Positions 22,079-49,218 of a stretch of DNA of 64,000 nt are shown here, one piece after another; position 1 is the first letter of the stretch, and every line of letters starts with the position of its first letter. The stretch covers positions 62,001 through 126,000 of the forward strand of contig NZ_JAGQBW010000001.1 of the NCBI RefSeq assembly GCF_024345835.1, given 5' to 3'. The DNA comes from Synechococcus sp. HJ21-Hayes. GTDB lineage: Bacteria; Cyanobacteriota; Cyanobacteriia; PCC-6307; Cyanobiaceae. Under the pieces are notes generated by a model, which made no database searches, was not told where the DNA came from, and saw only the letters and a list, made by a program, of their open reading frames with translations. The position numbers and the translations under genes were made by a program.

Positions 22079-23124
22079 TGTGTAGTCCCACCAGGTTGTT
22101 CAGCTGACAAGTGGGTGTGAGGTCGTCATGGTCCGGGTGTCACCTCCGACCCACTGACCTCACATCCCATGCATACCCACCCGAATGCTCGGCTGACACC
22201 CCTCGGCCGTGAACGGTTGCTGCGTCGACACATTGATCACGGTGAAAGCCTCGCCTTCCTTGCTGCTCAGGTGGGGATCAGCGTCCGCACTGCCTACAAG
22301 TGGCTGGCGCGCTACCGCTCAGGCGGTGCCACGGCTCTGGTGGATCGACGCAGTGTTCGCCGCACTCAGCGGCGGGCGCTCGATCCACTGCAACTGCAAC
22401 GCGCCGTTGACCTCCGCCATGAGCGCTGCACCTTGCGTCGCGTCGCCAGGGTGTTGGCGGCGCCACTCTCCACCGTCGGTCGGGTGCTCAAGGCCCTGGG
22501 CCTCGGCCGACTCAAGAACCTGCAGCCAGCTGAGCCGGTACGCCGTTATCAGTGGGCGAGGCCGGGCGACATGATTCACGTCGATACCAAGCAGCTGGCT
22601 CGCTTTGAGCGAGTGGGTCACCGGATCACGGGTGACCGACGCCTGGGCTCTTCCCGTGGTGCGGGTTACGAGAAGGCCCATGTGGCCATCGACGATGCAA
22701 CACGGCTGGCTTACGTCGAGGTGCTGCCGGATGAAAAGCAGGCAACCACGGTCGGCTTTCTGCTGCGGGCAGTGGCCTGGTTCGATGGTCAGGGGATCAG
22801 CTGCAAGAGGGTGCTCTCCGATAACGGCAGCGCCTACCGCTCGAAACCCTGGCGAGAAGCCTGTTCAGCGCTTGGTCTCACACCAAAACGCACCAGGCCG
22901 TACACCCCACGAACCAACGGCAAAGCTGAGCGGTTCATCAAAACCTTGCTGGCGGAGTGGGCGTATTCGATGGCCTTCCAGACCTCAACCGAGCGGAGCC
23001 GGTTGTTGCCCCGCTATCTGGCGATCTATAACGGCCGCAGGTGTCATATGGCCCTGGCTGGCCGCACCCCCATTCAGCAGCTCGGACTGTTGCGGGCTAC
23101 TGAATGACCTGGTGAGAAAACACA
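22079..23124. mobile_element. IS481 family insertion sequence
   Basis: A 1046-bp element with imperfect terminal inverted repeats of 25 bp (20 matches): left starting TGTGTAGTCCCACC at 22079, right its inverted partner ending at 23124. It carries one intact transposase on the plus strand. The flanks CCTAGG (left) and CTTAGA (right) are close to the NCTAGN target that IS481 elements duplicate, so the insertion is old enough to have mutated or the flanks are a chance match. It sits in the 5' region of cpcE. Confidence 0.85.
22169..23107 (+). CDS. IS481 family transposase
   Basis: A 312-residue DDE transposase. The N terminus has a helix-turn-helix (SLAFLAAQVGISVRTAYKWL), and the core supplies HVDTKQL (D), LSDNGSAY (D) and KAERFIKTL (E), the three catalytic acids. 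The frame is intact, so the element may still be active. Confidence 0.92.
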   Translation: MHTHPNARLTPLGRERLLRRHIDHGESLAFLAAQVGISVRTAYKWLARYRSGGATALVDRRSVRRTQRRALDPLQLQRAVDLRHERCTLRRVARVLAAPLSTVGRVLKALGLGRLKNLQPAEPVRRYQWARPGDMIHVDTKQLARFERVGHRITGDRRLGSSRGAGYEKAHVAIDDATRLAYVEVLPDEKQATTVGFLLRAVAWFDGQGISCKRVLSDNGSAYRSKPWREACSALGLTPKRTRPYTPRTNGKAERFIKTLLAEWAYSMAFQTSTERSRLLPRYLAIYNGRRCHMALAGRTPIQQLGLLRATE

Positions 23125-23585: not shown

Positions 23586-24827
23586 CAGGGCTGATTCAAA
23601 GTCCGTCACAGGCGTCCTTGCCGGGGCTGTCAGCATGGGTTGAGGTCGGCGGAATCGCCCCCTCCTTGTGCTTGAAAGCGCCTCCGCCGCAACCGATCTC
23701 GACCTGATCAGCTATCTGAGGTCGATCCCAGATGCGCGGATGCGACGCGGCGTGCGTTTTCCCGCCTGGTACCTGTTGCTGGTGGCGGTGCTGGGAATCC
23801 TCAGCGGCTGCCAGAGCCTGCGGGATCTGGAGCGTTTTGCCATCCGCCACCACAGCGCCCTGACCGAGGCACTCGGCCTGGAGCTGCGGCGGCCGCCGTC
23901 GGATTCCTCGTTCCGCTACTTCTTCCACCAGGTGGACGTGGCAGCCCTGTGCGCAGCGCTCCGTGACTGGACGATCGCCCAGATCCCGGGTGGTGCAACG
24001 GATCTCGACCAGCTGGTGTGTGACGGCAAAACCTTGAGGGGTTCGATCGAGCCCACAGCCGGCGGGGGCTCCGCGTTCATTGCCCAGGTCACCCTGTACT
24101 CCGCCGCCCTCGGTGTGGCGATCAGCCAGGCCTGCTACGCCACCGGCGAAAACCACGAGCGGGCGGTGCTGCGGCAGCTGCTCGGCGAGCTGGATCTCGA
24201 GGGTGTGCTGATCCAGGCGGATGCGCTCCATACCCAGCGCCCGTTTTTCGGCAGCTCCAGGAGCAGGGAGCCGACTTCTTGCTGACGGTCAAGGGCAACC
24301 AGAAGACGCTGCACCGCCAGATCAGCAGCCAGTTCCAGGGCAAGCGCAAGATCCCTTTTGTGGCAACGGATCACGAGGTTGCCCACGGCCGCGACATCAC
24401 CTGGATGCTGCGCGTCAGACAGGCTCCAGAGCACATCAGCGAGGCCTGGATCGGCACCAGCTGGATCGTGGAAGTCATGGCCAGTGGCACCCGTGACGGC
24501 AAGCCGTTTCAGGCCACTCACTTGTTTCTGACAAGCCTGCGCACCACGCCAGAAGCCCTGCTGCAACTGGTGCGGGGCCGCTGGAGTATCGAGGGCTGGC
24601 ACTGGATCCGGGACACCCAGCTCCATGAGGACGCCCACCGCTATCGGGGCAATGGCGCCGGCGTGATAGCCACTCTGCGCACCGCCGCCTTGAACCTGCT
24701 GCGTCTGGCTGGCTTCCGCTCAATCCGCGCTGGAATTCAGGCGGTGATGCACGACATCAAGGCGCTGCTGGCAATGGCGCGGCGCCGGCCGGAACCCGGC
24801 CTGGGTTAAGACTTTGAATCAGCCCTG
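23586..24827. mobile_element. ISAs1 family insertion sequence with 10-bp target duplication
   Basis: A 1242-bp element with perfect 18-bp terminal inverted repeats, CAGGGCTGATTCAAAGTC. It is flanked by the direct repeat GGCATTTCCC (23576-23585 and 24828-24837), a 10-bp target duplication usual for ISAs1. The intact repeats and duplication point to a fairly recent insertion. Removing it joins the two halves of the host gene in frame (NNCWHFP-DTAGQ). Confidence 0.93.
23668..24809 (+). pseudogene. Frameshifted ISAs1 family transposase
   Basis: The first part (GTG 23668 to ~24247) holds VCDGKTLRGS with the first catalytic Asp, and DALHTQ. After the T-run at 24243-24247 the frame shifts by one base. 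RQLQEQGADFLLTVKGNQ continues in another frame to 24809 (WSIEGWHWIRD carries the Glu). One missing T would explain it. A functional transposase is unlikely unless the ribosome slips there. Confidence 0.8.
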
Positions 24828-26727: not shown

Positions 26728-28247
<1,520 letters not shown>

Positions 28248-29916: not shown

Positions 29917-30826
<910 letters not shown>

Positions 30827-30843: not shown

Positions 30844-31377
<534 letters not shown>

Positions 31378-33165: not shown

Positions 33166-33600
33166 ATGACCACCTTCTTGATCTCCCACAACCTGCAGGT
33201 GGCGAGTGAATGTTGCCCCCCCTTGGATGGGCTGCAATTGGCGGCAGGGTTGAAACGCTTCTGTCCAACGGTCACCTCGGCGGAAGCTTTGTCCCACCCG
33301 CACTGGCGTCTCCGGATGGAGAGCCCGCTAGATGCCCCGCGTTTTGCTGAGGAACTAGTGGCAGGATGGGCCTCACTGCGTAGCGACGATGGCCATGGGG
33401 TCAACCATGGGATTCTTGCGTTAGGAGGGCGCAAGGACACACCAGCAGCCAACTCTTCACCACTCGGTCTCGGCGCCTGGGGGGTCGACGTCGTTGAAAC
33501 TCCTGATCCAGATGCTTTTCTGGAGGGTATTCAATGGGAACAGCTGAAGGTTGGCCGTCCAGCCGATGGCGTTTTTGAGGTGCTCTACAAGCCGCTCTAG
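33166..33600 (+). CDS. DUF2656-like rod-region protein
   Basis: A 144-residue protein: MTTFLISHNLQVASECCPPL at the start and LSHPHWRLRMESPLDAPRFA in the middle, which resembles the cyanobacterial DUF2656 family often found with phycobilisome genes. No known activity. Divergent from cpeF with only 21 nt between starts. Confidence 0.65.
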   Translation: MTTFLISHNLQVASECCPPLDGLQLAAGLKRFCPTVTSAEALSHPHWRLRMESPLDAPRFAEELVAGWASLRSDDGHGVNHGILALGGRKDTPAANSSPLGLGAWGVDVVETPDPDAFLEGIQWEQLKVGRPADGVFEVLYKPL

Positions 33601-40671: not shown

Positions 40672-41904
40672 TTAAAGCAGTCCTAGTCCATGCAGTGGGC
40701 CATGCCTGATGATCACCTCCATCAGGACTGCGGCAGCCCCAAGCATCGCTACTCGTCCGTTCCACAGCTCGGAGTCGTTGTTCCAGCCCCAGGCCCACTT
40801 GTTCTGGGGTTTGAGATTCGCCTTGGTGGGTCGCTGAGCAGCTTGATCGAGATCGGTTTCCGTTTCAGCCATCGCCTGCTCCACCAGGTCGGTCAGGGCG
40901 GCAATGAACGCTGGATCCGTGTCCAGCGCAGGGACGCGCCGAAAGTTTTTTATTCCGGCTGCTATAGCAAGCTCTCGGTATTCTATATCGATTTCTTCTA
41001 GGGTTTCGATATGCTCGCTGACAAAACTGATCGGCACTACCACAAGGTCTTTAACTCCTTGCGCTCCCAGTTCCTGCAGGGCGTCTTCGGTGTAGGGCTT
41101 GAGCCATTCGACTGGACCAACACGGCTTTGGTAGGCGAGGGTGAAGGGATTGGTATAGCCTAACTGCTGCTTTAGTTGCTCAAGGATCAACTTGCTGCTG
41201 GCCACGATCTCCAGTTGATAGGGATCCCCGGCTTCCTCCACATAGCTTTTGGGCACACCGTGGGCGCTGAAGAATATATGTGCATTGGAAGGATCTTCGC
41301 ATGCTTTTATTTCGTGTGCGATCAAATTAGCCAGCGCTTGGATGTAGCCAGGATGGTCATACCAGCTACGGATGCAGCGGATTGGCAGGCGGCTAAAGGT
41401 AGGATCGATATTGCGCAAGCGCCGCAGCTCCCGGAAGCTCGAGCCACTGGTGCTGATCGAGAAGTGAGGGTAGAGCGGCAGCACAACCACTTCATCGACT
41501 CCGTCGGCCTTGAGGTCTGCTACAGCGGATTCGGTGAATGGATGCCAGTAGCGCATGGCTACGTAGCTGGTGGCATCCACTCCATGGAGTCGCAGGCTGC
41601 TTTGTAGGTCTTGGGCCTGCTGTCCCGTGATGCGTCGCAACGGCGAACCTCCTCCGATCGAGCGGTAGGCCTGCCGTGACTTGCCGCTGCGTAAGCTGCT
41701 TATCAGCCATGCGAATGGCTTCTGCATCGCTGATACCGGCAGGCGGATGATCTCTGGATCTGAGAATAGATTGTAAAGAAACGGCCCAACGTCCTGGATC
41801 CGTTCCGGTCCGCCAAGGTTCAGCAGGACAACGCCGACTCGTGGTTTTCGTTTGGTTGCAGATGGTTCCATGCGGGCTTCAAATGCACGATTGGATTCAG
41901 CCAT
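40672..41904 (-). CDS. hemH: Ferrochelatase with C-terminal light-harvesting-like helix
   Basis: Inserts iron into protoporphyrin IX. The 410-residue product has [11 protein letters not shown] at the N terminus, the catalytic [19 protein letters not shown], and [20 protein letters not shown]. Residues ~372-405 are a light-harvesting (HLIP/CAB)-type helix, [20 protein letters not shown], which binds chlorophyll in related proteins. Such a tail is usual for cyanobacterial ferrochelatase. Its position among rod genes is not. The start overlaps the upstream pentapeptide gene by 8 nt. A second copy elsewhere in the genome is possible. Confidence 0.92.
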
Positions 41905-42640
41905 GAAGGCTTTCGCGCGTCGTTCGGCGTGTCAATGGATTCCAGCAGTCAAGTTCCTGGAAAGCCCGGCCAAGCAGAGATCCTCGAAGGGTGTCGATGT
42001 CGATTGCACCTGAAAAGTCAGCCCCGCGAATGCAACTAGCGCCGCTTAAATCACTGTTTTTGAGCTCTGCATGTCGGAAATCCACATAGTCAAGCTGGCA
42101 GTTCAGGAATCGAGTCCCCTCACACAATGCACCTCTCAATAGGGCATGGCGTAGATCTGCTCCAGCCAGTCGTGCGCCTCGCAGGCAAGCACCTGAGAGA
42201 TCAGCTCCGCTGAGATAGGCACCCATTAACGATGCTCCTTCCAGATCCATGCCGGCAAGATCTGCATTGTTGAGAAAGGCCCCATTAAGCCGTGCCTGCG
42301 GGCCGATTGCTCCACTGCTTCGGAAATCGAAACCGTGGGGCCAAATTGTATGTCTGTCATAGCGAGCCAATCGTAGATCTGTGCCTTCAAATTGGCAGCT
42401 GTGAAGGTCAGCACCCCTAAGATCTACTCGGCATAATCGTGCCTTGGATAGATCAAGCTCGCCAAGTTGTAGGTTGCGCCAATCGGCTCCCCTGGCATCC
42501 AATGGGCCTTCATGACTGTTAGCAGGGGGTTTCTGCTGCTCGGGGGTTGTGCGCTCAAAGGCGAGTGACGTAATGGGGAAAGCTGACGTCATGATATCTG
42601 GAGGGTTGTTTTGTACGTGATAATGGCATCGGATTTGCAT
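41897..42640 (-). CDS. Pentapeptide-repeat protein
   Basis: A 247-residue protein with a long run of A(D/N)LXX-type repeats ([20 protein letters not shown], then [20 protein letters not shown]) from about residue 55 to 215, forming a right-handed beta helix. The tail is short and polar. Function unknown; many such proteins act as scaffolds. It overlaps hemH by 8 nt, so the two are translated together. Confidence 0.85.
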
Positions 42641-42697
42641 GTATTGCCCTAGGCGGACTTGCTGATGGTCGAGCTAGAAATGGCGCATACAATGAGT

Positions 42698-43297
42698 TCA
42701 TAAGTTAACCTCAGTGGCTGGGCTGGATCTTTGGTTCAATTGTTGAATCATCTGCTCTAGGTGCAGCAGGGCTTCTCCCAGAAGGGATACATCATTTGAG
42801 CTCGCATAGGCAGAATAGCGTGAAAGTGCGTCAGTTTTTAGAAAGCCTATCGCTAGAGCCATGCTGTTGACTGGCACCCTTAATTCCCGATACAAATCAC
42901 CTAGACCCCGTACTCCGGGGGGATGGGTGAAAATTGGGCGTTCCACCGCAACTGCATAGATCGTTACTCTAAGAAAATGCCAACAATCGCGCCAACACGC
43001 TTCCGCCCTTGCCCCAGGGTAAAGCGCACCACCGGTAAGAACTAGGCCTGGATCTTCGCGAAGTAGTTGACCCTTGGCTGAGGTAACAATTAGGGGAGTC
43101 TTTGACTGAAGCCGTTGCAGGTGTTCAGCATTGACAGTAGAGATACTACAGATGGCGCTCAATTCATCCTCACTTAATGCACGGGCCTCCGCATCTGCTT
43201 GCTGAAGTATTGCACGAATCGATGGCGGTAGAGACTGATCGTGTATCAAGCCGAATATGCGCGCCTTGGCTGTCAGCTCTCTAAGTCTTTCGTCCAT
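42698..43297 (-). CDS. Phycobiliprotein-like protein with intact bilin-pocket residues
   Basis: A 199-residue globin-like relative of phycobiliproteins. SISTVNAEHLQRLQSKTPLI matches helix B-E, and ARAEACWRDCWHFLRV lines up with [16 protein letters not shown] of CpcB, so the bilin-contact Arg (97), Cys (101), Arg (103) and Asp (104) are kept. An extra Cys (105) follows. The PAVAVERPIFTHPPGVRGLGDLYRELRVP region matches the next helices (shown here in pieces: GLGDLYREL). It lies 4 nt after its partner gene. It may bind a bilin, sense one or assist assembly. Not an ordinary alpha or beta subunit. Confidence 0.72.
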   Translation of the reverse strand: MDERLRELTAKARIFGLIHDQSLPPSIRAILQQADAEARALSEDELSAICSISTVNAEHLQRLQSKTPLIVTSAKGQLLREDPGLVLTGGALYPGARAEACWRDCWHFLRVTIYAVAVERPIFTHPPGVRGLGDLYRELRVPVNSMALAIGFLKTDALSRYSAYASSNDVSLLGEALLHLEQMIQQLNQRSSPATEVNL

Positions 43298-43301
43298 GGG
43301 A

Positions 43302-43913
43302 TCATTCTCGGTTAAGCCGCTTCATGTCATCGGTGCGTACGGTGACTTGAAGTTTGATATCGTTAGAGTCTGGATCCTGATCGAGCACGGGCGTGGCAAC
43401 CAGATGGCCGTGACGTTCTAAGTAAAGCGCCCATGCTACTTTTCCGGCAATACCTGGGCAGTTTAGTAGAACAGACTTTATCAGGTCTGAGCTTAGACCA
43501 AGAGCTTGCAAGAGCACCTTGCAATCTTCTTGACTGTTTACAGAGGCAGGACGAATTGCTGCTCCTACAACCCAACCTAGCGAGGTGTCTTCAAGGGGTC
43601 CAGTGGAACTCAAGCAGGCCAATAGGAGATTTCCTCCCTTCCCAGCAATTTTCCTATACTCTAATCTCCATAGCTCAAGATTATGAGGATTTACGGAAAT
43701 CCGAAATCCGGGCTGACTGGCGTCAGGGGTAACTTCGTCTTGGCCTTGATGGGAGCTGATAAGAGCATTGAGCTGACTAAGGGGATCGCTCATTGCAATT
43801 CTCTTTGAGGGAAGAAGATCTTCATCCAGCTCACTTTCCCAACGATGACAGTAAGAGTAATCGCTTCGGCCATCAGTTGAGCCCATCATTGCCGTGATTG
43901 ACGGTGAATCCAT
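43302..43913 (-). CDS. Unknown conserved protein beside the phycobiliprotein-like gene
   Basis: A 203-residue protein of unknown function. The first 40 residues are acidic and Ser-rich; the ATG at 43793 (MSDPLSQLNALI) is an alternative start. The rest is a mixed alpha/beta pattern (FRISVNPHNLELWRLEYRK, LACLSSTGPLEDTSLGWVVG, VAWALYLERHGHLVATPVL). No motif is recognised. Placed between cpcG2 and the phycobiliprotein-like gene, 4 nt from the latter, so a joint job is likely. Confidence 0.6.
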   Translation of the reverse strand: MDSPSITAMMGSTDGRSDYSYCHRWESELDEDLLPSKRIAMSDPLSQLNALISSHQGQDEVTPDASQPGFRISVNPHNLELWRLEYRKIAGKGGNLLLACLSSTGPLEDTSLGWVVGAAIRPASVNSQEDCKVLLQALGLSSDLIKSVLLNCPGIAGKVAWALYLERHGHLVATPVLDQDPDSNDIKLQVTVRTDDMKRLNRE

Positions 43914-43954
43914 TGCTCAATTGTTGGAGGCAGTTTATTAATGCGAGTCCCATT

Positions 43955-44713
43955 TTATTGTGCTCCAGTGCTCAGCATGGCAGCTGCAATCCAGAGCACG
44001 AGTCCTGTGATCACAAAACCACCGGCTGTCACAGTATTTTGCCAGAGCTTGCGAGCCCATGGTGCGGGGGCGTCGGCGAGCCAGGCCGGTCGTTGGCTGA
44101 TGGCGTCTTGCCAGAGCACCTTGGCTGGAGCTCGCTTGGCCATTTTGTCCCTCCAGATGCTGTCGTAGCGGGGCGCCTGCTGGTTGAAGGGCATGGTGCC
44201 CAGGGCTTGGCCGGGTAAAATCCGTGACCTTTGAAAGGGAACGGTATTATATCCAAATGTATCCATGTATTCTTCCGAATCCAGGAGTGAATCAACAAAT
44301 GCTCCGAGACCATGCTGGGCGATCATGATGGAGAAGGCGAGCCGCTCTTGATTGCCGTGTACAGGACGTCCTAGGACTCGGTTCACTACCTGCTCAACCA
44401 TGCGGTAGTTGCTGTTGCAGCGGTAGAAATCATCCCGGAACTTTCGAGATAGTAGTAGACCCCGAATGAAATCTCGCATCGTGATCTGGCCGTTCTGCAG
44501 CTGCGACTCAAGCGCTGGCTCCCGGTCGACTTTGAAGGCGTGAAAGAAGATCTGTTTGTAGGCCTGAGCAATCTGGCTCTCAAAGTTTCCGTTGCCACTG
44601 AGCTGACCAGTTCCGGACTTGAACTCACGGCTGTCCTGACCGCCGGGTAGCTGAAAGCTGTTCACCCGCGCGTTCATGGTCAGCAGCTGGGTCGCAAGAA
44701 GCGGAAGGGCCAT
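43955..44713 (-). CDS. cpcG2: Rod-core linker CpcG2 with C-terminal membrane helix
   Basis: A 252-residue CpcG-family linker: MALPLLATQLLTMNARVNSF at the start; linker domain at about 45-180 (QAYKQIFFHAFKVDREPALE, NRVLGRPVHGNQERLA). The last 28 residues (from TVTAGGFVITGLVLWIAAAM) form a hydrophobic helix. CpcG2/CpcL-type linkers with such a helix can attach rods to the membrane or photosystem I. First gene of the five-gene group ending in hemH. Confidence 0.85.
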   Translation of the reverse strand: MALPLLATQLLTMNARVNSFQLPGGQDSREFKSGTGQLSGNGNFESQIAQAYKQIFFHAFKVDREPALESQLQNGQITMRDFIRGLLLSRKFRDDFYRCNSNYRMVEQVVNRVLGRPVHGNQERLAFSIMIAQHGLGAFVDSLLDSEEYMDTFGYNTVPFQRSRILPGQALGTMPFNQQAPRYDSIWRDKMAKRAPAKVLWQDAISQRPAWLADAPAPWARKLWQNTVTAGGFVITGLVLWIAAAMLSTGAQ

Positions 44714-45067: not shown

Positions 45068-45556
45068 TCAGACGAGGGCGCTGATTGCGTAGTCGATGTA
45101 GTTGTTGGCAATCACGCCGGGGTCGCCGGAGATGCCGTGGTTGGCCTTGATGTAGTTCAGGGCCTCCACGTACCAGGAGGGGGACAGTTCGAACGCACGG
45201 TTGATCTCGTCGAGACCAGCGATCAGGTACTCGTCGATGGGGCCGGTGCCACCAGCAACCAGGCAGTAGGTCACCTGACGCAGGTAGTAGCCGATGTCAC
45301 GGGCACACTTGGCCTTACCGCGCGCGTCGGAGGCGTAGTTGCTGCCCTGCATCTGGGTGGTGTAGGGGAACTTGTTGTAAACGGCCTGGGCAGCACCGTT
45401 CACCAGCGAGTCAGCGTTGGCGGTGAGGGCCTTGGCAGCCTCGAGGGCGTTCTTGGCGCGCTCGAAACGACCGAAAGCGGCGTTCAGCTCGGTGTTGCTC
45501 AGGAAGCGGCCCTGGGAATCAGCGGCTGCTACGGCTTCGGTGAGAGGGGTCTTCAT
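45068..45556 (-). CDS. cpcA: Phycocyanin alpha subunit
   Basis: A 162-residue bilin protein of the rod base. The bilin Cys84 is in [19 protein letters not shown]. Starts [20 protein letters not shown]. It pairs with CpcB; CpcE/CpcF attach the PCB. The gap to cpcB is 97 nt. Confidence 0.97.
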
Positions 45557-45653: not shown

Positions 45654-46172
45654 TCAGGCGACAGCAGCAGCAGCGCGATCGAAGTAGGTGCCGATCTCGC
45701 TCATCAGAGCGGAGCAGTCGCCCTGGGTGATGCCGTTGCGATCGTTGGCGATCGAGATGGCGGCGTCCTTCATCTTGCGGATGCCTTCAGCCACGGAAGC
45801 GCCAGGAACGCCCAGGGCCAGGTAGGTCTCACGCAGGCCGTTCAGGCAGCGATCTTCCAGCACGGACGCGTCACCGGTGAAGGCGGCGTAGGTGATGTAG
45901 CGGAGAACGATCTCCATGTCGCGCAGGCAAGCAGCCATGCGACGGTGGGTGTAAGCGTTGCCGCCGGGAGCGATCAGCGCAGGCTGCTGATCGAACAGAT
46001 CGCGAGCAGCGCTGGTGACGATCTTGGAAGCGTTGGAGGTGATGCGGTTCACGGCATCCATACGCTTGTTGCTCTCAGCCACCATGGCGGCGAGGGCATC
46101 GATTTGACCAGCGTTCAGGAATTCGCCGCGGGCATCAGCCTGAGCAACGACCTTGGTGAAGGCGTCGAACAT
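45654..46172 (-). CDS. cpcB: Phycocyanin beta subunit
   Basis: A 172-residue bilin protein. [18 protein letters not shown] holds Cys82, and [14 protein letters not shown] the Cys153 site. An AGGAG is 8 nt before the ATG. CpcT (49219) should fill Cys153. Confidence 0.97.
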
Positions 46173-48341: not shown

Positions 48342-49088
48342 TCAGCCGGCCGACCCGGTGCTCAGCATGGCCCCGGCGGTGGCCACCAGCACGCGCACCA
48401 GTTCCAGGGCACCCACGCCAGCCAGGGCCAGCCAGAGGGTCTGCGCCAACTTGGGGGGCTGACCGCCAACCCAGGCAGGAGACATCTGACCACCGCTGAA
48501 CTGGGCACCACCACCGGCATAGGGGTTGGCGGGAGCACGCTTGGCGCTGATCTCACGCCAGTAGGCGTCATAGCGGGGAGCCTTCTGGTTGAAGGGCAGT
48601 TGAGCCTTGGCATGGCCGGCCAGCACCCGGGAGCGCTGATAGGGCACCTCATCCGTGCCGAAGGCCTCCATGTATTCGGGCGATTCGAGCAGGGCATCCA
48701 CAAAGCCCTCAAGCCCCTGGTTGGCGATCACGATCGACCAGGCGATGCGCTCCTGGTTGCCGTGCACCTCACGGCCCAGCACCCGGCCCACCACCTGCTC
48801 CACCACGCGGTAGTTGCTGTTGCAGCGATAGAAGCCCTCGCTGAACTTGCGCGAGAGCAGCAAGCCGCGCACGAAATCACGGGTGGTGATCGTGCCGTTG
48901 CGCAGCTGCATCTCCAGCATCGGCTCACGATCCACCTTGAAGGCATGGAAGAAGATCTGGCGGTAAGCCCGCTCGATCACTTCATCCACAGCCACCAGGG
49001 TGCGCGGGGCTTCATCACCGCCAATGGCGAAGTTGTTCACCCGGGCGTTCTGGGTGATCGGCTTGGTGGCCAGCAGCGGCAATGCCAT
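48342..49088 (-). CDS. cpcG1: Rod-core linker CpcG1 with C-terminal hydrophobic helix
   Basis: A 248-residue CpcG: MALPLLATKPITQNARVNNF, RAYRQIFFHAFKVDREPMLE, GRVLGREVHGNQERIAW. The last 30 residues (from TLWLALAGVGALELVRVLVA) are hydrophobic, as in cpcG2, both ending AMLSTG. The 49163 frame extends upstream but is not conserved-looking; 49088 is chosen. In the classical CpcG1 the tail is not a membrane helix, so this one is notable. Confidence 0.9.
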   Translation of the reverse strand: MALPLLATKPITQNARVNNFAIGGDEAPRTLVAVDEVIERAYRQIFFHAFKVDREPMLEMQLRNGTITTRDFVRGLLLSRKFSEGFYRCNSNYRVVEQVVGRVLGREVHGNQERIAWSIVIANQGLEGFVDALLESPEYMEAFGTDEVPYQRSRVLAGHAKAQLPFNQKAPRYDAYWREISAKRAPANPYAGGGAQFSGGQMSPAWVGGQPPKLAQTLWLALAGVGALELVRVLVATAGAMLSTGSAG

Positions 49089-49218
49089 AACGGCAGCAGA
49101 AAAAAGCTCGCCGACCATAGAAAAGGGATTTAGGCAGAAACCCCTAGGGCGCCAACATCGCACAGAGCTTCACGGCTGGCGTAAAGCACTGCAACGTTGT
49201 GCAAAGGATCTGCGGAGA

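Follow-up and report, generated by a model that had tools for sequence, protein, structure and literature searches.

The minus-strand open reading frame at positions 42698-43297 encodes a 199-amino-acid protein with a phycobiliprotein fold domain, and its product is almost certainly AplA. All positions refer to the window, i.e. the entire 64,000-nucleotide stretch of Synechococcus sp. HJ21-Hayes DNA that was analysed. The gene was assigned as aplA, coding for an allophycocyanin-like protein, because its sequence, an N-terminal extension and the gene order agree with this (PF00502 match, orthologues, tree and published aplA gene order). Among the genomes compared, AplA accompanies phycoerythrin where this is part of phycobilisomes, and phycoerythrin can also be made without it. 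The best reading of the sequence data is that AplA would carry a covalent bilin and serve the phycoerythrin system from outside the antenna, in bilin handling or in sensing. An earlier annotation made from the DNA letters alone, here called the sequence-only reading, had given exactly these coordinates and no strand.

The gene itself is already known, as aplA has been named in marine Synechococcus and in type IIB pigment clusters; the sequence-only reading, which knew of no described function, was mistaken with respect to the family. According to Six et al. 2007 (PMC2246261), (i) all PEII-containing strains have an aplA orthologue upstream of cpcGII; (ii) unk4 sits upstream of aplA; (iii) the pentapeptide-repeat gene unk5 is generally found downstream of cpcGII; and (iv) AplA is a photosensor of unknown function which is not linked to the phycobilisome. 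Type IIB clusters contain aplA with cpcBA upstream (PMC6363710), and AplA is also named in figure legends of PMC5478717 and PMC6776005. The gene in the window shares nearby unk4, cpcGII and unk5 with aplA of marine PEII strains and upstream cpcBA with aplA of type IIB clusters.

PF00502 (Phycobilisome) was the only Pfam domain above its cut-off in AplA (E 1.9e-28; 99.8 bits vs 22.2), residues 30-185 being aligned with profile positions 2-153, and no output domain was detected in this search. The likeness to phycobiliproteins on which the sequence-only reading was based is thus real, and chance resemblance is ruled out by the E value of 1.9e-28. A photoreceptor of the phytochrome or cyanobacteriochrome type was also rejected, as no GAF domain scored above the Pfam cut-off. 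Solved phycobiliprotein structures matched the AplA sequence with E values of up to 1.1e-12, CpcB of the window matched with 31% identity (E 2.2e-10), and nine places in the organism's own genome, AplA itself included, were matched at E 10 or better. None of the NCBIfam subunit cut-offs was passed: five models matched, all far below their thresholds (bits/cut-off: ApcA 51.8/270, CpcB 47.2/279.3, ApcB 42.2/228.15, CpeB 41.3/275 and CpeA 21.3/225). With ApcA as the best equivalog at such a score, the previous statement that most of the protein is far from alpha and beta subunits holds.

An AlphaFold2 model of AplA, built from 14 sequences, had a pLDDT of 90.8 and a pTM of 0.86. When it was submitted to Foldseek, all 50 matches listed were phycobiliproteins or engineered derivatives, and a globin-like phycobiliprotein fold was thereby predicted. 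About 130 residues of the model superposed on several CpcB chains at 2.1 Å; among the matches listed, cyanobacterial and red-algal subunits were aligned over 140-152 residues (rmsd 3.2-4.3 Å) and cryptophyte beta chains over 144-150 residues starting near residue 25 (2.4-2.7 Å). The control model of CpcB from the window was poor (pLDDT 60.9, pTM 0.47), so that the placement of the N-terminal helices and hairpin of AplA is left out of our conclusions.

AplA consists of a single phycobiliprotein domain plus an extra N-terminal segment. By its offset against CpcB, this extension comprises 22 residues in the window protein (codons 1-22; 43232-43297, minus strand), profile position 2 of PF00502 corresponding to residue 30. 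It measured 18-33 residues across a 34-row AplA alignment in which some starts were chosen by hand, and 22-29 residues in 26 of 33 proteins from other cyanobacteria, the other seven having 34-60 residues with mechanically chosen starts. Apl proteins, described by Montgomery et al. in 2004, reportedly extend at the N-terminus by about 28 residues beyond allophycocyanin, as compared to the 22 found here, and are said to keep the pocket residues while interface residues are altered. AplA of F. diplosiphon reportedly carries a covalent chromophore and is absent from phycobilisomes. The window protein shares with the Apl family its allophycocyanin-like character, the N-terminal extension and the retained pocket residues; its tie to F. 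diplosiphon AplA is made through published orthology and gene order.

A tree was calculated from 71 rows comprising 16 picocyanobacterial and 33 other AplA proteins and 22 antenna subunits. The 49 AplA rows were split from the 22 subunits with support of 100/100, and both the picocyanobacterial AplA group and that of the other cyanobacteria were undivided (99/89 and 97/93, respectively). AplA did not group within any subunit clade among the 22 subunits compared. Some of the AplA rows had long branches, and as the tree is unrooted it does not date AplA relative to the split between alpha and beta subunits. An ordinary alpha or beta subunit is ruled out by this position together with the scores below cut-off. 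AplA shares the fold and the chromophore site with ApcA, CpcB and CpeB and differs from the antenna subunits by its own side of the tree, its scores below the subunit cut-offs and its extra N-terminus. It also differs by a pattern of Trp102, Trp106, Leu92 and Pro94, the proline being present in CpeB as well.

The bilin-pocket motif RAEACWRDC had been placed correctly at residues 97-105 with the chromophore-type cysteine at residue 101 (codons at 42983-43009, minus strand; Cys101 codon at 42995-42997). Of the alignment to CpcB proposed along with it, the conserved residues stood, and the two printed nine-letter strings did not, as they were one residue out of register. In the proper register ARAEACWRD lies opposite RRMAACLRD, and Arg97, Cys101, Arg103 and Asp104 match CpcB residues.

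Orthologues were searched in 400 genomes of the home (picocyanobacterial) family, 308 of which had a match at E 1e-5. The cut for AplA was set at E 2e-20 or better, which retained 103 of the 400 genomes (counted by hand); a gap extended from there to 3e-14, where ordinary subunits start. Together with 13 further loci, the home-family search yielded 117 open reading frames, which reduced to 104 distinct rows; at least three of these rows were partial. A profile search across the phylum gave a match at E 1e-12 in 167 of 386 genomes. A nearly full-length AplA (E 1e-36 to 1e-50) was encoded by 33 genomes that lie outside the home family, separated by a gap from the next match at 9e-27.

Conservation of the pocket was almost complete. 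In the picocyanobacterial rows Arg97, Cys101, Trp102, Arg110 and Tyr114 were each present in 104 of 104, Arg103 in 100, Asp104 in 102 (the other two being unreadable) and Cys105 in 92. All 33 proteins from other cyanobacteria had Leu92, Pro94, Arg97, Cys101, Trp102, Arg103, Asp104, Trp106, Phe108, Arg110 and Tyr114, and 31 of them had Phe at position 105. Taken together, Cys101 was found in 137 of 137 AplA rows and Asp104 in all 135 readable ones, and the residues highlighted by the sequence-only reading are thus retained among orthologues. Its suggestion that the protein may carry a bilin is well supported by this pocket, and we consider it very probable, from sequence conservation, that AplA binds one covalently. 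Trp102 is constant in AplA, position 102 being occupied by Leu, Ala, Leu and Tyr in CpcB, CpcA, CpeB and CpeA of the window, respectively. The equivalents of CpcB Asp13, Arg91 and Tyr95, which we take to be interface residues, have mostly been retained: every AplA row has Arg110 and Tyr114 (for Arg91 and Tyr95), and Asp35 (for Asp13) occurs in 86 of 104 picocyanobacterial rows, with Asn in 17, and in 31 of 33 others. Pairing of AplA with another subunit is therefore possible.

Cys50 (codon at 43148-43150, minus strand) and Cys105 (42983-42985, minus strand) covary in picocyanobacterial AplA. The residue pairs at positions 50 and 105 were Cys/Cys in 85 of the 104 rows, Ser/Leu in seven, Ser/Cys in five, Arg/Leu in two and Cys/Leu in two, and Arg/Cys, Val/Leu and gap/Cys in one each. 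The two cysteines may pair as thiols across two helices close to the chromophore cysteine; the covariation could also have arisen through shared ancestry.

In the window, the genes are arranged on the minus strand in the order cpcBA, cpcG-type linker, unk4, aplA, unk5 and hemH. The frames at 45654-46172 and 45068-45556 (both minus strand) are presumably cpcB and cpcA by their translations; the former encodes the comparison protein of the sequence-only reading, and the latter provided a tree row and a neighbour-search query. Directly upstream of aplA lies an unk4-like gene (43302-43913, minus strand) whose stop is 4 bases from aplA. No Pfam or NCBIfam model matched Unk4 at the thresholds applied, and the function of AplA is therefore not readable from it. 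Among 109 picocyanobacterial loci, counted with duplicates, the unk4-like gene lay directly upstream of aplA in 96; of the 13 misses, those at L010 and L023 are probably artefacts of long open frames, and L010 has an Unk4 match near aplA. An Unk4 profile found no match in the 33 aplA loci of other cyanobacteria at E 10. Across picocyanobacteria, Unk4 contains conserved stretches such as LLAC, TWVVG, CPG and YLERHG.

The cpcG-type rod linker gene occupies the cpcGII position (43955-44713, minus strand; PF00427 E 5.9e-38, CpcG models below cut-off). Both cpcG-type linkers of the window, this one and that at 48342-49163 (minus strand), end in a hydrophobic stretch, with 19-residue hydropathy maxima of 1.98 and 1.95, respectively, and these ends recall membrane-anchored CpcL linkers. 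On the other side of aplA, an unk5-like pentapeptide-repeat gene (41897-42640, minus strand; PF00805 E 3.5e-28) overlaps by 8 bases with hemH, which codes for ferrochelatase (40672-41904, minus strand; TIGR00109 above cut-off). The C-terminal tail of the ferrochelatase showed a weak match to the chlorophyll a/b-binding domain (19.2 bits vs a cut-off of 22.3).

The phycoerythrin genes are located elsewhere in the window. cpeB, encoding the beta subunit, lies at 30266-30826 on the plus strand (above the NF058508 cut-off; contig 92266-92820), followed by what is presumably cpeA for the alpha subunit (30883-31377, plus strand; assigned from its translation and used as a neighbour-search query). 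The stretch at 26728-28238 (minus strand) is taken, from translations, to hold pebB and pebA for phycoerythrobilin synthesis, relatives of which are found beside aplA in other cyanobacteria. A DUF2656 gene is also present in the phycoerythrin region (33166-33600, plus strand), and a relative of it adjoins aplA at loci L169, L171 and L185. Two transposase-like frames were recognized by eye between cpcE/F-like genes and pebB (22169-23107 and 23668-24809, the latter split; plus strand). The G+C content of the aplA region (41897-44713) is 52% as compared to 62% for the whole window, and this fits the hints at gene transfer given for a type IIB cluster in PMC4139726. In that paper, Larsson et al. 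2014 report on a type IIB contig that carries cpcGII in two copies along with hemH, heme oxygenase and transposases; hemH adjoins pebAB in published type II/IIB clusters (PMC6363710, PMC4139726). Gene content in the window agrees with type IIB, whereas hemH is located beside unk5 rather than pebAB and cpcG precedes unk4 and aplA.

Outside the picocyanobacteria, stretches of 8.7-16.6 kb around 33 aplA genes were surveyed, neighbours being labelled by their best matches to window proteins. Recurrent neighbours were listed with the phycobilisome-type proteins of the window as queries, for clusters present in at least four loci. At least one phycoerythrin-cluster gene was found at E 1e-30 in 23 of the 33 stretches: pebA and pebB were each present in 16, unk5 in 15, and cpeS and cpeT in 13 each. 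Within about 4 kb of aplA, relatives of S/U-type lyases and of unk5 occurred in 15 of 33 loci each. A CpcG-type gene was detected at E 1e-30 in one of the 33 stretches.

A further neighbour was an opposite-strand gene for an NblB-like HEAT-repeat protein of 218-235 amino acids, located within 1.25 kb of aplA in 16 of 33 loci and within 1.7 kb in 18 (E 4e-70 or better against the copy at L157; distances from midpoint to midpoint). The 18 loci were L157, L159-L164, L166, L170, L172, L174-L177, L179, L180, L183 and L184; L185 has a diverged HEAT gene on the same strand near aplA. At L162 and L180 the gene adjoins aplA even though a phycoerythrin-cluster gene at E 1e-30 is absent from the stretch. 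In three of the 18 proteins that were tested, the best named relative was NblB with 96-103 bits, which is below the NblB model cut-off of 300. In the genome of the window, no close relative of the HEAT protein was found, the best match being 37% identical (E 7.5e-23) and on another contig. HEAT-repeat proteins such as NblB, CpcE/F and CpeY/Z are possible partners of AplA and are not homologous to it.

Co-inheritance with phycoerythrin was analysed outside the home family in the 124 searched genomes in which a protein of the CpcB or CpeB type was matched at E 1e-40. AplA was encoded in 28 of 30 genomes with CpeB above cut-off as compared to five of the 94 other phycobilisome genomes. In an exact test stratified by family, 27 joint cases were observed vs 12.0 expected (P about 1e-14); stratification was by family alone, the genomes not being independent, and the test draws on the ten of 28 families that contain both genome kinds, the other 18 offering no contrast. 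Family f6 is partly contrary, as four of its 12 genomes without phycoerythrin carry AplA. In the home family, CpeB was found at E 1e-70 in 96 of 103 AplA genomes, and 100 CpeB genomes lacked AplA. By hand count, 85 of the latter had a single phycobiliprotein match and 15 had three or more; the 85 would be Prochlorococcus-like genomes without phycobilisomes. AplA is not needed for making phycoerythrin, since it is missing from these 15 phycobilisome-bearing genomes and from two of the phycoerythrin genomes that lie outside the home family. A published phycoerythrin strain without AplA is WH7805 (PMC2246261).

Conversely, five genomes outside the home family, four of one genus and one other, encode AplA without CpeB above cut-off. 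Each has one Fe-bilin reductase vs three in the three phycoerythrin genomes checked, so AplA there is independent of phycoerythrobilin made by the cell. Seven home-family genomes also have AplA without CpeB. Three of them had one bilin reductase and phycocyanin-level matches only. In one of the seven, G262 (locus L012), two phycoerythrin-type linkers lie 3-4 kb from aplA near a contig end, and an assembly gap is therefore the likely cause of the missing CpeB; for the remaining ones the same cause is a guess.

In the 28 genomes outside the home family with both genes, aplA and cpeB were less than 15 kb apart in 11, farther apart on the same contig in six and on different contigs in another 11, which in draft genomes conveys little information. 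The aplA stretch of five phycoerythrin genomes lacked a phycoerythrin-cluster match at E 1e-30 (L158, L162, L167, L180 and L181), although L167 has an unk5 relative near aplA nonetheless. Hitch-hiking in one transferred cluster is therefore less likely as the sole reason for the link to phycoerythrin. We consider it likely that the role of AplA belongs mainly to the phycoerythrin system. This link goes beyond the sequence-only reading, which had suggested, besides a bound bilin, a bilin sensor, a chaperone or a scaffold. In the literature that names aplA we found no statement of phylum-wide co-inheritance with phycoerythrin, subscription papers having been mostly outside the search; the possible novelty concerns this association and not the gene.

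We propose that a thioether bond would attach a bilin to Cys101, where Asp104 and the adjacent Arg residues would hold it, and that Trp102 would mark a pocket or face unlike that of antenna subunits. AplA would not take the place of an alpha or beta subunit in the rods and would act as a soluble accessory, present in low abundance, of the phycoerythrin-type antenna. During the making or remodelling of phycoerythrin it may handle bilins as a temporary acceptor, a buffer or in quality control, with lyase-type and NblB-like HEAT-repeat proteins taking part. As a whole, this explanation of AplA as a bilin-bearing phycoerythrin accessory off the antenna, most likely concerned with bilin handling, has about an even chance of being right. 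Bilin handling, as opposed to sensing light or playing a structural part, is put forward tentatively, at slightly less than even. It is preferred to sensing by a small step because the recurrent neighbours of aplA function in bilin synthesis, attachment and perhaps detachment.

A light sensor whose bilin responds to light colour, with the odd N-terminus or a partner relaying the signal to phycoerythrin expression or rod remodelling, is unlikely yet the strongest of the alternatives. It is in line with the photosensor label given in Six et al. 2007 (PMC2246261), and both the co-inheritance with phycoerythrin, which would suit the sensing of antenna colour, and the position of AplA outside ordinary subunit clades agree with it. 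The lack of any Pfam domain besides PF00502 above cut-off, and hence of an output domain, argues against sensing, as do the recurrent neighbours, which with phycobilisome-type queries and clusters in at least four loci were genes for bilin synthesis, lyases, linkers and HEAT proteins, and the retention of AplA in five genomes without phycoerythrin.

Less probable still is a minor antenna component, such as the cap or the terminal emitter of CpcL-type rods that are anchored in the membrane and formed with the neighbouring cpcG product. This gene lies close to aplA in the window and in published clusters, and the product in the window ends in a hydrophobic stretch. Asp35, Arg110 and Tyr114 of the interface type are largely retained, and 144-150 residues of the model, its N-terminal helices included, fit cryptophyte beta chains at 2.4-2.7 Å. 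Against this, aplA is accompanied by a CpcG-type gene at a single one of the 33 loci outside picocyanobacteria (E 1e-30), and AplA of F. diplosiphon is reportedly absent from phycobilisomes. Six et al. 2007 (PMC2246261) likewise describe AplA as having no link with the phycobilisome. In picocyanobacteria, with cpcG as a neighbour, a minor antenna role is possible. A scaffold or chaperone that acts as an apo-protein and keeps the pocket residues for folding alone is very unlikely. A single-domain fold was predicted well without ligand and aplA is often located among assembly genes; even so, Cys101 in 137 of 137 rows and Asp104 in all 135 readable rows are hard to explain without a bilin, and the F. 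diplosiphon protein is said to have a covalent chromophore.

Bilin handling may be specified further, in a form that we regard as rather unlikely in its details: AplA would carry bilins for a time or accept them for quality control, working with a dedicated NblB-like HEAT-repeat protein in many cyanobacteria and with Unk4 in picocyanobacteria, where the covarying Cys50/Cys105 pair could add redox control beside the chromophore cysteine. AplA is a known orphan described in 2004, and its co-inheritance with phycoerythrin within ten families, along with its bilin-related and HEAT-repeat neighbours, indicates where its function should be sought. If bilin handling by AplA is true, a phycobiliprotein that acts as a bilin handler and not as an antenna part would represent a new use of this fold.
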